Source of the DNA: a virus
Direction: 5' to 3' (one strand)
Length of the DNA stretch: 30,692 nucleotides
Virus record (IMG/VR): IMGVR_UViG_3300032293_001336
Coordinates: 1-30,692 of that record
Within the stretch, counting starts at the first letter, position 1. Every line of letters begins with the position of its first letter. The notes beneath the pieces were generated by a model that worked only from the letters and a program-made list of their open reading frames with translations, did not search any database and was not told where the DNA came from. Shown piece by piece: positions 19,934 to 26,306 of this stretch. The position numbers were made by a program, and so were the translations under genes.

Positions 19934-20319
19934 GCCTTGAGATAGGTGGTGATTTCAGTAACTGCCTCGTCGCGTCCATAGGCGACGACGACCTTGTAGT
20001 TCCGGTCCCGCAGGGCGGTGACCCATTCGCGTTGCAGGTCGGAGAGACCCCCCTTGGACTTCTGTGTCTTCGGACGGTTGTCCTGGGTCTTCATCTCGAT
20101 GAAGAGACCGTGATACCCATGCCGAGGGACCGGCAGGAAGATGTCGGGCACTCCAGGCTTGACCCCTTCTGCCTTCATCTTCTTGGCGACGAGCATGTTT
20201 CGGTGCCCACCGTTGGGGATGGCGAACATCCACCGGAGGTCGGGGAAGTCGCGGAGCATCCATCCTGCCCAGAGGAAGACCCCTGACTGCTCATCGTGTT
20301 CTAGAGGGTAGGGTCTCAT
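19930..20319 (-). CDS. VRR-NUC domain nuclease
   Basis: The 129-residue protein is a stand-alone VRR-NUC domain of the PD-(D/E)XK fold. It has FAIPNGGHRN (about 32-41), GVKPGVPDIFLP with Asp59, FIEMKTQ with Glu75 and Lys77, and the LSDLQREWVTAL helix followed by KVVVAYGRDEAV. Phage members act as Holliday-junction or flap nucleases (Hjc-like) in recombination and packaging, but this one could also be a general repair nuclease. It overlaps the methyltransferase gene by 4 bases and the winged-helix gene by ATGA. Confidence 0.92.
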   Translation of the reverse strand: MRPYPLEHDEQSGVFLWAGWMLRDFPDLRWMFAIPNGGHRNMLVAKKMKAEGVKPGVPDIFLPVPRHGYHGLFIEMKTQDNRPKTQKSKGGLSDLQREWVTALRDRNYKVVVAYGRDEAVTEITTYLKA

Positions 20320-21608
20320 GTCAATCTTTTAAGCAAGGTTCGGAATGCATGCTCTGCTGTTGCCGGCACCACTCCGTTTCCAAGGAGGCGTAGTTCGTCG
20401 GTGCGATTGTCACAGGAGACATACAACTGGGCATGACCCATCCAATCGGCAGACCCATCAACGTCTCTACCCAACGAGGGTTGAGCTTCCCGTTCTGCTG
20501 CCTTTCCCTCAAATACACTGGCGAATGCACTGCCTCGCGCAAATTGCTCAACGCTTTTCGATTCTTTCTGCCGCCACGGGTCCGATTGCTTTCCGCAAAC
20601 TCGGCCACCGGACGAACCGGCAACACGTCCATTGTCTGCGGAGTTGGCCATGACTGCTGCGCTTGAGCCAGTAGACTGTGTTGCTGCCCTTTCGGCTGCC
20701 TCCCCTCCCTGACTGCTCTCCTGGAGTTCGTGTTTGGGGCCTCCGGTGCCTGTGTCGGAGTGTGCCACAACCCTAGGTGGTTCCCACTCATGCTGGGGTT
20801 CTCCTGGGCGGGATGGCCATTCTTGCGTTTCTCGTATTTGTCTCTCGTCACCTCCCCTTGAATCGCTGGGTGATTGCTCAATCCGACTTGTCCATAGTTG
20901 GGTTGGTTGCTGATTTTCCCCGCTTCTGCCACAGTCGGAGTCGGCCATGACGCAACCGTGACCACTGCCTGATCCAGTGTGTCCATTGCTCGACTCTTCC
21001 CATCGGACCTGATCATTGATTCGGGTCGATATGCGCCCTTGTAGTCCCTCGTCGTTGCGGTTGGCCATGATGAAGACGCGCTTCCGTTGGTGTGGTGCTC
21101 CGACTTCAGACGCAGAGAATACTCCTGCCGTTGCTCGGTAACCCACCCTTTCCAACTCTCGGAGGACATGGAGCAAAACTGGGGTGCCGGCAGGATCCCG
21201 CCATCCATCTCCTGCGAGTCTGGAGGACAAGATTCCTTCAACGTTCTCAAGGAAAACAATGGCAGGTCCGCACTTTCTAACTCCGTCCAGAATGTAGGGG
21301 AAGAGATGCCGAGGGTCTTCGTCTCCTTCGCGTTTTCCTGCTGCGGAGAATGGTTGACAAGGAAAGCCTCCAGAGAGGAGGTCCACCTTCCCGCGAAACT
21401 CTTCCCAAGGGAAGGTTTTAAGATCCGACCAGACAGGTGCTGAGTCCAGGAGTCGCGACTCCATTTTTGAGACCAAGTTTGCGCAGGCGAAACCCTCGAT
21501 CTCAGCATAAGCAACCGTGCGCAGACCTCGGACTGCTCGGTGAAGTCCGAGATCAATTCCTCCGTATCCGGCGCAGAGGGAGATGTGAGTGATTTGGGAA
21601 TTATCCAT
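20316..21608 (-). CDS. DNA cytosine-C5 methyltransferase
   Basis: Starting at ATG 21608 (MDNSQITHISLCAGYGG), the 430-residue product has the ordered motifs of C5 methyltransferases: motif I LCAGYGGIDLGL (11-22) for AdoMet, motif IV PCQPFSAAG (83-91) with catalytic Cys84, motif VI ENVEG (121-125), motif VIII QRKRVFI (174-180) and motif X LRLLGNGVVPATAEHAF (406-422). Between VIII and X lies a long polar region with four spaced MA-N/D/H-S-type units (about 181, 220, 281, 319), where the target-recognition domain should be. It may protect phage DNA from host restriction. The whole gene is also open in a second frame on the same strand. The start lies just after the upstream stop. Confidence 0.93.
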   Translation of the reverse strand: MDNSQITHISLCAGYGGIDLGLHRAVRGLRTVAYAEIEGFACANLVSKMESRLLDSAPVWSDLKTFPWEEFRGKVDLLSGGFPCQPFSAAGKREGDEDPRHLFPYILDGVRKCGPAIVFLENVEGILSSRLAGDGWRDPAGTPVLLHVLRELERVGYRATAGVFSASEVGAPHQRKRVFIMANRNDEGLQGRISTRINDQVRWEESSNGHTGSGSGHGCVMADSDCGRSGENQQPTQLWTSRIEQSPSDSRGGDERQIRETQEWPSRPGEPQHEWEPPRVVAHSDTGTGGPKHELQESSQGGEAAERAATQSTGSSAAVMANSADNGRVAGSSGGRVCGKQSDPWRQKESKSVEQFARGSAFASVFEGKAAEREAQPSLGRDVDGSADWMGHAQLYVSCDNRTDELRLLGNGVVPATAEHAFRTLLKRLT

Positions 21609-21613
21609 GTCAT
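20321..21613 (-). CDS. Overlapping second-frame reading of the methyltransferase gene (430 aa)
   Basis: A second ATG at 21613 overlaps the upstream stop (ATGA, as for most genes here) and opens a frame of exactly 430 codons that ends 5 bases from the methyltransferase stop. Its N-terminal 170 residues have no recognisable fold. The rest holds four spaced W-x-T-P-like units (SWPTATTRDYKG at 182, SWPTPTVAEAG at 222, LWHTPTQAPEAP at 282, SWPTPQT at 321) and LNPRWVETLMGLPIGW at 377-392. I recall this last motif, with its WPTPT repeats, from the C-terminal parts of some phage methyltransferase-type proteins. It could be a true overlapping gene, a product of ribosomal frameshifting from the methyltransferase frame, or an open frame preserved by the repeats. 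Not proven. Confidence 0.4.
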   Translation of the reverse strand: MTWIIPKSLTSPSAPDTEELISDFTEQSEVCARLLMLRSRVSPAQTWSQKWSRDSWTQHLSGRILKPSLGKSFAGRWTSSLEAFLVNHSPQQENAKETKTLGISSPTFWTELESADLPLFSLRTLKESCPPDSQEMDGGILPAPQFCSMSSESWKGWVTEQRQEYSLRLKSEHHTNGSASSSWPTATTRDYKGAYRPESMIRSDGKSRAMDTLDQAVVTVASWPTPTVAEAGKISNQPNYGQVGLSNHPAIQGEVTRDKYEKRKNGHPAQENPSMSGNHLGLWHTPTQAPEAPNTNSRRAVREGRQPKGQQHSLLAQAQQSWPTPQTMDVLPVRPVAEFAESNRTRGGRKNRKALSNLREAVHSPVYLRERQQNGKLNPRWVETLMGLPIGWVMPSCMSPVTIAPTNYASLETEWCRQQQSMHSEPCLKD

Positions 21614-21930
21614 CGGAAAAGACGCGCCTCCCTCGCAGCATCATGGGCAAGGTCACCTAGGTGGTCGCAGGTATCGCAGATTCCCCAGTCCCGACCGTGC
21701 GGGCAGTGTGGCTCATTATCGAGCGGAGGTTCCTCGACTGTGTTCTGCTCCCATGCCGGATCGATGTCGTGCTGTGCGCTCTGCTCTTGGTTCCATGCGT
21801 CTATCGCTTTGCGGATAGCGTCGGCGACAGATTTTGGCGGATCCTCCTGATCGATAAGGGTTTCGAGCATGACATACCAGTCCGGTGGCTCCGGGTGGTC
21901 CGGTGGGTCGAGGTAGGAATCGAAGTTCAT
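21610..21930 (-). CDS. Small acidic protein with a Cys/His knuckle (106 aa)
   Basis: The product is acidic (MNFDSYLDPPDHPEPPDWYVML...), with a helical middle (VADAIRKAIDAWNQEQ) and a C-terminal HCPHGRDWGICDTCDHLGDLAHDAAREARLF. The spacing C-x-H-x(6)-C-x(2)-C-x-H suggests a zinc knuckle. Small proteins ending in this CPHG---GxC--C motif occur in many phages, with no known role. ATGA overlap with the upstream gene, and its stop overlaps a start in the next, indicate coupled translation in the early operon. Confidence 0.75.
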   Translation of the reverse strand: MNFDSYLDPPDHPEPPDWYVMLETLIDQEDPPKSVADAIRKAIDAWNQEQSAQHDIDPAWEQNTVEEPPLDNEPHCPHGRDWGICDTCDHLGDLAHDAAREARLFR

Positions 21931-25001: not shown

Positions 25002-25304
25002 CGTGCCTTTGTCCTTGAATCGTGCTATTTCTGCGCTACCCTCCCGCGGATGACGCTGAAAAAGACAGGCAAAAAAGACAGTTTGGCTAAGACAGTCGAA
25101 CGGCCCGAAAGCCTCAAACCCTTACAGCAGTAAGGCAAAGCTCGGTTAGCTCAGGGGTAGAGCACCTGCTTCACACAAGCGCAAAGCGTGCCTTTTTTCC
25201 CGTCTTTTCAAGGAATTCCCCGTCGTTAGTGCGTGCAATTTGTGCTATTTTCGCGCCAATTAAGACAGTCCACTAAGACAGTCGGACCCAATAGTCTAAG
25301 ACAT
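25002..25304 (+). other. attP: attP-like region with arm-type repeats around a tRNA core
   Basis: The 408-base stretch between the RHH and integrase genes holds no gene. It contains TAAGACAGTC-type repeats on both sides of a tRNA fragment. Left side: AAGACAG at 25062-25068, 25075-25081 and 25089-25095. Right side: 25262-25268, 25275-25281 and a partial copy at 25298-25304 (AAGACAT). Further pairs are CGTGCCTTT at 25002 and 25187, and GTGCTATTT at 25022 and 25242, one member on each side. A perfect inverted repeat CCTTAC...GTAAGG is at 25120-25135. This is the layout of an attP with arm-type integrase sites on both sides of a core. Confidence 0.75.
25140..25176 (+). other. 5' half of a tRNA-Val(CAC)-like gene, probable attP core
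   Basis: GCTCGGT-TA-GCTC-AGGGGTA-GAGC-A-CCTGC-TTCACAC is a perfect tRNA 5' half from acceptor strand to the end of the anticodon loop (anticodon CAC, valine). The expected GCAGG that would close the anticodon stem is missing: the next bases are AAGCGC. It cannot be a working tRNA. It is best read as identity with a host tRNA gene, with strand exchange in or near the anticodon stem-loop. Confidence 0.75.
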
Positions 25305-25310
25305 GATCAT

Positions 25311-26306
25311 ATGAACGGTGTTTTCAAACGAGGAAAAAGGTTCTGGTTCCGATTCACCTGGGAGGGTCGGCAACGGTTTGTGAACCTTGGGACCGACCAT
25401 GAACCAGACGCGATCAACGCCGCGATGAAGGTTCTCGCGAACCCTTCCGAATGGATGACCGGCACCGACCATATCGTCGCCCTCCTCGACCAGTTCCTCT
25501 CTCTGAAGACTCTCAGGGGAGTGTCACCGGCATGGACGACTGAAGAGCGGACCCGGCTCGGAGCGTTCTTCCGCGACTACAAGATCAAGCATGCAAGCGA
25601 CATCACACGGTCGAAGGTGACGCAGTGGATGGATGTCCACTGGGCGAGGAACCAGGACACAGGGAACTCCTACCTCGCGAGTCTCGCCCGGTTCACCCGG
25701 TGGCTCCGAGAACACGGGCACCTCTCGACGGACCCGTGCGAGGGGATCCCGAGGAGGAAAGCCAAGATGCGCGTTCGGAAAAGGTTCCTCTCTCGGGAGG
25801 AGTGCCGTCACCTCTTGGATTTCTGCACCGATCCTGATCTGAAGATGTGCTTGTATTTCGGGATCCATTGCGGTCTCCGCAAGGGAGAGGTCTTGCAGGT
25901 CGCGCCTCACTGGCTCGACGTTGAGAACGGTCTGTTGCATGTGCAAGCCTCAAAGGACTGGCAACCGAAGGACAGGGACAACAGAACCATCCCCCTGACG
26001 AAGGAGTTCCTCGCATTCCTTCTCCCCTACGCAGACCGGGAACCCTACATCGTGCGTCCTGATGTGGTTGCTGGCGCAGGTCGATACCGGTGGGATTTCC
26101 GCAGACCCTTCACCGATCTGCTCGAAGAGGTCGGGGTGAAATGCACGTTCCACGATTTACGCCGCACCTTCGCGTCCCAACTGGTCTCCTCTGGCGTGTC
26201 AGCCTACAAGGTCGCCCGGTGGCTCGGAGACGGCATGGCAGTGGTGGAGCGTCACTACGGGCACCTTATTCCGAACGACGAGGACATCAACAAGGCATGG
26301 GGATAA
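25311..26306 (+). CDS. int: Tyrosine recombinase (phage integrase)
   Basis: Start chosen at ATG 25311 (MNGVFKRGKRFWFRFTW). An in-frame GTG at 25233 would read through the repeat sites. The 331-residue protein has an arm-binding-type N-terminus (1-40), a SAM-like core-binding domain (about 50-140) and a catalytic domain from about 160. Catalytic residues are Arg190 in HCGLRKGE, Lys215 in ASKDW, His281 and Arg284 in FHDLRRTF, and nucleophile Tyr316 in RHYGH. The usual LGH before the tyrosine is LGD (Asp307). The adjacent attP-like region with a tRNA half is its expected target. Its 3' end overlaps the convergent last lysis-cluster gene by 20 bases. Confidence 0.95.
   Translation: MNGVFKRGKRFWFRFTWEGRQRFVNLGTDHEPDAINAAMKVLANPSEWMTGTDHIVALLDQFLSLKTLRGVSPAWTTEERTRLGAFFRDYKIKHASDITRSKVTQWMDVHWARNQDTGNSYLASLARFTRWLREHGHLSTDPCEGIPRRKAKMRVRKRFLSREECRHLLDFCTDPDLKMCLYFGIHCGLRKGEVLQVAPHWLDVENGLLHVQASKDWQPKDRDNRTIPLTKEFLAFLLPYADREPYIVRPDVVAGAGRYRWDFRRPFTDLLEEVGVKCTFHDLRRTFASQLVSSGVSAYKVARWLGDGMAVVERHYGHLIPNDEDINKAWG

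Follow-up and report, generated by a model that had tools for sequence, protein, structure and literature searches.

A phage locus that probably encodes both subunits of a C5-cytosine methyltransferase in overlapping frames

Sequence comparison makes it probable that a single locus in a viral contig encodes both subunits of one C5-cytosine methyltransferase of the M.EcoHK31I type in overlapping frames with adjacent starts. The window analysed, the complete stretch of 30,692 nucleotides of IMG/VR record IMGVR_UViG_3300032293_001336, looks like a temperate phage by its gene content, with an integrase gene (PHROG 1) at 25233-26306 on the plus strand and tail, portal-type, terminase and replication genes elsewhere. 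The two genes, here termed alpha and beta, comprise 430 codons plus a stop codon each (Table 1). Beta occupies the +1 frame of alpha and is displaced from it by 5 nt at the starts and by 5 nt at the stops, in agreement with a first-pass annotation that had noted two 430-codon frames with starts and ends 5 bases apart. A true overlapping gene, a programmed frameshift and a constraint imposed by the repeats had been put forward as explanations; the overlapping gene is now strongly supported by stop counts in homologues and by constraint on both frames.

Table 1. Features of the overlapping locus in the window
Feature	Position	Strand	Remarks
Alpha, C5 cytosine methyltransferase	20316..21608	-	430 aa; motifs I-VIII and X; without recognisable motif IX
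Beta, frame +1 ORF	20321..21613	-	430 aa; N-terminal conserved region, WPTP units, motif IX
Double start ATGACATG	21606..21613	-	beta ATG 21613-21611; alpha ATG 21608-21606
GGGAGG, possible Shine-Dalgarno sequence	21627..21632	-	~13 nt upstream of beta ATG; long spacing
Alpha motif I region HISLCAGYGGIDLG	21546..21587	-	sequence
Alpha motif IV GGFPCQPFS, catalytic Cys	21345..21371	-	sequence
Alpha motif VI FLENVEG	21234..21254	-	sequence
Alpha motif VIII GAPHQRKRVF	21072..21101	-	change at positions 1/2/3 0.040/0.015/0.320, 40 pairs
Alpha WPSRPGEPQHEWEPPR element (WEPPR motif) within linker	20772..20819	-	alpha-type substitution, pos3/pos1 3.49
Alpha motif X LLGNGVVPATAEHAF	20343..20387	-	PHROG match and sequence
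Beta N-terminal conserved W/K/R-rich segment, residues 38-73, RSRVSPAQTWSQKWSRDSWTQHLSGRILKPSLGKSF	21395..21502	-	pos3/pos1 1.29 at alpha codons 25-72; codon identity ~2x shuffles; predicted helices within 15-82
Beta helix, residues 151-177, before first WPTP unit	21083..21163	-	pLDDT ~95 for most; codon constraint ratio 1.8-2.1 at alpha codons 145-168
Beta unit 1 (WPTATTRDYKG...DQAVV), candidate TRD cassette	20960..21070	-	sequence, unit comparison
Beta unit 2 (WPTPTVAEAG...), candidate TRD cassette	20768..20950	-	overlaps MADS stretch of alpha
Beta unit 3 (WHTPTQAPEAP...), candidate TRD cassette	20654..20767	-	sequence, unit comparison
Beta unit 4 (WPTPQTMD...NLREAV), candidate cassette	20522..20653	-	common to many betas; resembles unit of Rothia phage Spartoi single-chain enzyme
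Beta motif IX KLNPRWVETLMGLPIGW	20438..20488	-	same DNA reads PSLGRDVDGSADWM in alpha; change at positions 1/2/3 0.265/0.041/0.016, beta constraint

Results

The two chains

Alpha matches Pfam DNA_methylase (4.7e-37) over residues 7-199 only, that is over motifs I-VIII, and PHROG 363 over residues 2-425 with motif X included; M.HhaI was reached by phmmer at 3.7e-11. Motifs I, IV (PCQ), VI (ENV), VIII (QxRxR) and X are present in this order. No motif IX is recognisable in the alpha chain: the Pfam match ends at residue 199, and the motif IX segment lies in frame +1 and is constrained in that frame. The earlier description of alpha as a standard C5 methyltransferase therefore holds for motifs I-VIII and X but not for motif IX, which is not recognisable in it. 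In two related loci (L111 and L166) alpha contains an in-frame stop, at codons 147 and 187, respectively, and beta is intact; these stops reflect either sequencing error or decay of alpha.

Beta is matched by PHROG 1008, 'DNA methyltransferase', at 4.3e-17. Positions 143-279 of this profile correspond to beta and positions 293-320 to motif X of alpha, which gave a first hint that the parts of a single-chain enzyme are divided here over two frames. No sequence match to beta was found in Pfam, NCBIfam or PDB. The AlphaFold model of beta is poor (pLDDT 53, pTM 0.29) with the exception of helices at residues ~15-82 and ~151-178, and an uninformative fold search of PDB with this model gave no match. 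Four WPTP-like units (WPTA, WPTP, WHTP and WPTP) were confirmed in frame +1, as was the C-terminal segment that the first-pass annotation had placed in the same frame, namely KLNPRWVETLMGLPIGW. What had there been likened to a phage methyltransferase-type C-terminus is this motif IX segment, which is in frame in single-chain relatives. The repeats also coincide across the frames as described before, the MADS codons of alpha (20922-20951) being read as WPTP in beta.

The beta ATG shares bases with the stop codon of the upstream gene (ATGA) and the alpha ATG follows at +5, just beyond the overlap, as had been pointed out earlier; initiation is likely coupled to the upstream gene. Most relatives start with ATGTG, in which the beta ATG is followed by an alpha GTG at +2, and the window has ATGACATG instead. 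A beta ATG at -2, -5 or -8 relative to the alpha start is conserved in nearly all loci. A frameshift product would be read from a downstream frame without a start of its own, whereas the start of beta is conserved.

Openness of the second frame

The openness of the second frame was assessed by shuffles in which the alpha protein and its codon set were fixed and synonymous codons were permuted. In the window, an open +1 run of at least 428 codons had P = 0.001 (shuffle mean 196), so that the window by itself is suggestive only and the homologues decide. This figure of about 1 in 1000 replaces the earlier estimate of a chance well below 1 in 100,000. The +2 frame of the window contains 19 stops, against 19.3 expected from the shuffles. 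Stops in the second frame of homologues had been named as the finding that would speak against an overlapping gene; instead, all 68 related loci were open in +1 beyond the shuffles (P<0.05), as opposed to 1/68 in +2. Summed over these 68 loci, 218 stops were observed in the +1 frame and 543 expected, and within alpha codons 1-250 of the full-length group there was none against ~198 expected.

Single-chain controls (four NgoMIV-type enzymes and one Vibrio dcm) gave no +1 excess. The +1 run of the single-chain Rothia enzyme was marginal (88 codons, P 0.03). A further control, dcm of Listeria seeligeri (L187:1150-2520), has a motif-IX-like segment in frame 0 and yet contains an open +1 run of 174 codons (P 0.001).

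Selection on the two frames

The ratio of change at third and first positions of alpha codons (pos3/pos1) shows which frame is dominant, since in the +1 frame position 1 of frame 0 becomes the wobble position and position 3 the second position. In 40 disjoint pairs this ratio was 1.29 at alpha codons 25-72, 4.10 at codons 73-106, 1.33 from codon 107 to motif VIII, 7.9 in motif VIII, 3.5 in the WEPPR element, 0.55 in the TRD, 0.06 in motif IX and ~2 beyond motif IX; an earlier run with 17 pairs gave the same flip. Change at frame-0 positions 1, 2 and 3 of the TRD amounted to 0.234, 0.134 and 0.129, respectively, in the 40 pairs. This profile assigns motif VIII and the WEPPR element chiefly to constraint on alpha and the TRD and motif IX chiefly to constraint on beta; both frames act on codons 25-72 and on the stretch from codon 107 to motif VIII. 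Constraint limited to the methyltransferase frame, the other pattern that had been named as evidence against an overlapping gene, is thus not what we found, because TRD and motif IX show beta-type change.

When beta codons were permuted in 112 loci, 625 alpha-frame stops were expected between motifs VIII and IX and none was observed, so that alpha is kept open across a poorly conserved linker and reaches motif X; the 112 loci include some duplicate contigs and homologues share ancestry, and summed counts of this kind therefore overstate independence. Among 34 loci with less than 75% identity, the frequency of identical codons at conserved residues reached up to twice the shuffled value in codons 25-36, 49-72 and 145-168; it was ~1.35-1.45 times that value in codons 73-132 and 0.83 times past the beta stop. 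Both frames are under selection on protein sequence in alternating blocks, as is characteristic of a functional overlap. The sequences give strong evidence that both frames are selected, and the substitution and codon patterns indicate selection on the N-terminal third of beta as well.

Arrangement in relatives

A scan with the beta alignment alone yielded no fewer than 562 related stretches from viral contigs, of which 80 were kept, some of them already part of the earlier set. All 80 loci found in this way carry alpha, overlapping in the expected frame and with beta starting at -2, -5 or -8. Motif X resides in alpha in most loci and in beta in four (L050, L057, L062 and L170). The alphas of L050 and L057 end in a cysteine-rich tail (e.g. 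CSECEECGEPVCPRCNIHYADCGCPG) in place of the motif X that sits in beta.

Single chains that combine the parts of alpha and beta also exist. The enzyme of Rothia phage Spartoi carries motifs I-VIII, a PTP cassette, IX and X in one chain; Pfam DNA_methylase covers its residues 3-321/324, and the full-length support rests on Pfam, since phmmer aligned this enzyme with HhaI over motifs I-VIII only. Two contigs, one from Myxococcales and one from Paenibacillus (L180 and L181), have motifs I-VIII, WPTP units and motif IX in one frame, although the gene of L181 may be frameshifted. Fusions of second-frame motifs to the methyltransferase N-terminus, for which the first-pass annotation had proposed a search, are thereby at hand in L082, L180 and L181. 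Actinophage methyltransferases that are annotated as two overlapping genes match PHROG 1008.

Related arrangements were also seen on plasmids. On a Streptomyces platensis plasmid (L190:1156-2127), motifs I-VIII, IX and X are found in frame 0 and PTP-type units in +1 (224-codon run, P 0.05), possibly an intermediate arrangement. Plasmid pAP1 of Paenibacillus polymyxa (L185:1216-2706) contains an unannotated +1 beta with two copies of the motif-IX segment inside an annotated methyltransferase. In a Sphingomonas paeninsulae plasmid (L087:1481-2572) an annotated 'hypothetical protein' is apparently the beta frame, as far as coordinates alone indicate, and alpha is unannotated.

Cassette exchange

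Order and number of related WPTP units vary between phages. Unit 4 of the window has a near-identical partner in L001, L002 and L003, the third unit counted in the first two and the fourth in the last. L042 and L044 share an identical 421-nt stretch of the TRD region and have diverged N-terminal halves, a pattern pointing to cassette recombination. By analogy, the distribution of units fits exchange of recognition cassettes as in multispecific phage methyltransferases. Single-linkage clustering placed 439 of 564 WPTP units in one cluster, and cassette classes are therefore illustrated by smaller clusters and direct neighbours only.

Discussion

In the arrangement that we propose, alpha would provide the catalytic large domain with motifs I-VIII and X, its region from VIII to X being largely reduced to a tolerant linker, and beta would provide the small domain, that is motif IX together with the four WPTP units read as target-recognition cassettes. 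The conserved helical region at the N-terminus of beta may dock beta on alpha. Ribosomes would initiate at both start codons, which lie 5 nt apart in the window (ATGACATG; ATGTG in most relatives), so that both subunits would arise from a single initiation region. Methylation of the phage's own DNA by the complex would guard it against host restriction, and cassettes swapped by recombination would change the specificity of the complex. Translation of beta from its first ATG, formation of a heterodimer, specificity residing in the cassettes and the anti-restriction role are what we infer from sequence.

Several other readings of the locus deserve consideration. That base composition, codon use or repeats hold the +1 frame open without any product is extremely improbable: the P value of the single window, at only 0.001, leaves some room for such a coding artefact, but chance and composition are ruled out by shuffles that hold codon use fixed and by the flat +2 frame and single-chain controls, and change in motif IX is almost limited to the wobble position of beta. 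A constraint by the repeats alone is likewise ruled out, and this suggestion of the first-pass annotation is contradicted, because openness and codon constraint span the repeat-free N-terminal half, with codons 25-72 and 107-168 lying outside the repeats. Programmed frameshifting, in which a +1 shift after motif VIII would generate a second isoform with I-VIII, the WPTP region and IX, can draw on the single-frame I-VIII/WPTP/IX proteins of L082, L180 and L181, and where motif X sits in beta one shift would even yield a complete enzyme. We nevertheless regard it as highly unlikely and, contrary to what had been considered earlier, as not needed, since a single shift drops motif X in the window and leaves both the selected N-terminal third of beta and the conservation of its ATG at -2/-5/-8 unexplained.

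Beta could also be an overprinted, translated protein with a function of its own unrelated to alpha activity, for example a regulator or an anti-restriction factor, and its N-terminal region indeed has no counterpart in single-chain methyltransferases and belongs to no known family. This has little probability given that segments lying in frame in single-chain methyltransferases align with motif IX and the WPTP units, that beta without alpha occurs in 0/80 loci and that motif X moves between the two chains. A variant of the two-subunit model itself, in which translation of the TRD/IX part begins internally, around codon 107 or further on, and the N-terminal part forms a small protein of its own, appears unlikely, though it finds a basis in nine loci where a TAA interrupts the beta frame after 107 codons and an ATG 3 nt on restarts it (TAA-AAA-ATG). 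The split adjoins the stretch of weakest beta constraint, and the betas of Kagunavirus and Paenibacillus phages have later starts; the other loci of the subfamily, however, are open through codon 107 without a stop. The nine split loci imply in any case that a covalent link between the N-terminal region and the rest of beta is not required.

The proposed two-subunit enzyme resembles known split C5 methyltransferases in part. The gene for the small subunit of M.EcoHK31I (YGGCCR) is said to lie inside that for the large one in another frame, reportedly described by Lee et al. in 1995. The large subunit of this enzyme carries motifs I-VIII and X and, as assigned, the predicted TRD, and only motif IX is on the small one (PMC3404938). 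The locus studied here shares the distribution of I-VIII and X on one polypeptide and IX on another, as far as sequence tells, but its beta is as long as alpha, has a common start region and possesses a conserved N-terminal region. Moreover, the TRD-like units reside in beta, evolve under beta constraint and have in-frame counterparts in single-chain enzymes, a difference that refers to the published description of M.EcoHK31I. M.AquI (CYCGRG), another split C5 enzyme, has motifs IX-X on its small subunit (PMC3404938), as do the betas of L050, L057, L062 and L170. In contrast, motif X of the window is in alpha and the overlap is full-length.

The multispecific C5 methyltransferases of Bacillus phages are orphan, single-frame enzymes with several recognition units in series between motifs VIII and IX. 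The window likewise has four candidate units in series at this place but, in a likeness of arrangement, they are encoded in a second frame over the alpha linker. Works on these Bacillus phage enzymes are cited in the reference lists of PMC4190342 and PMC8936443. In Paenibacillus phage Shelly, gp56 is annotated as 'g55 internal gene' and lies inside the methyltransferase gene in the +1 frame, as beta does; neither this record nor that of PHROG 1008, the family matched by beta, speaks of the overlap with alpha or the supply of motif IX, and the Shelly beta is without the N-terminal part. The literature searched, from which most subscription papers are absent, contained no account of this overlap in phages. 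The full-length overlap and the N-terminal region of beta are apparently new, as are the AUGUG double start and the use of cassettes in two frames.

Long overlaps on the same strand of double-stranded DNA phages are frequently written off as annotation errors. In the 1.3 kb overlap described here, selection alternates so sharply that substitution patterns reveal the coding frame of each segment. On the evidence of the sequences we consider it rather likely that co-extensive same-strand genes split one enzyme over two frames throughout a widespread phage family, with the functional elements of each subunit mostly placed over tolerant linkers of its partner, one AUGUG/AUGACAUG double start and cassettes that are exchanged although they have to stay open in both frames. 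The family has at least several hundred viral members. Many 'C5 methyltransferase' entries in databases may represent only half of an enzyme, with the recognition subunit left unannotated, so that attempts to clone them or to predict their specificity from the annotated gene by itself could fail. The locus offers a tractable case of specificity-cassette recombination under two-frame constraint, and for the temperate phage itself the enzyme would probably mean protection from host restriction.
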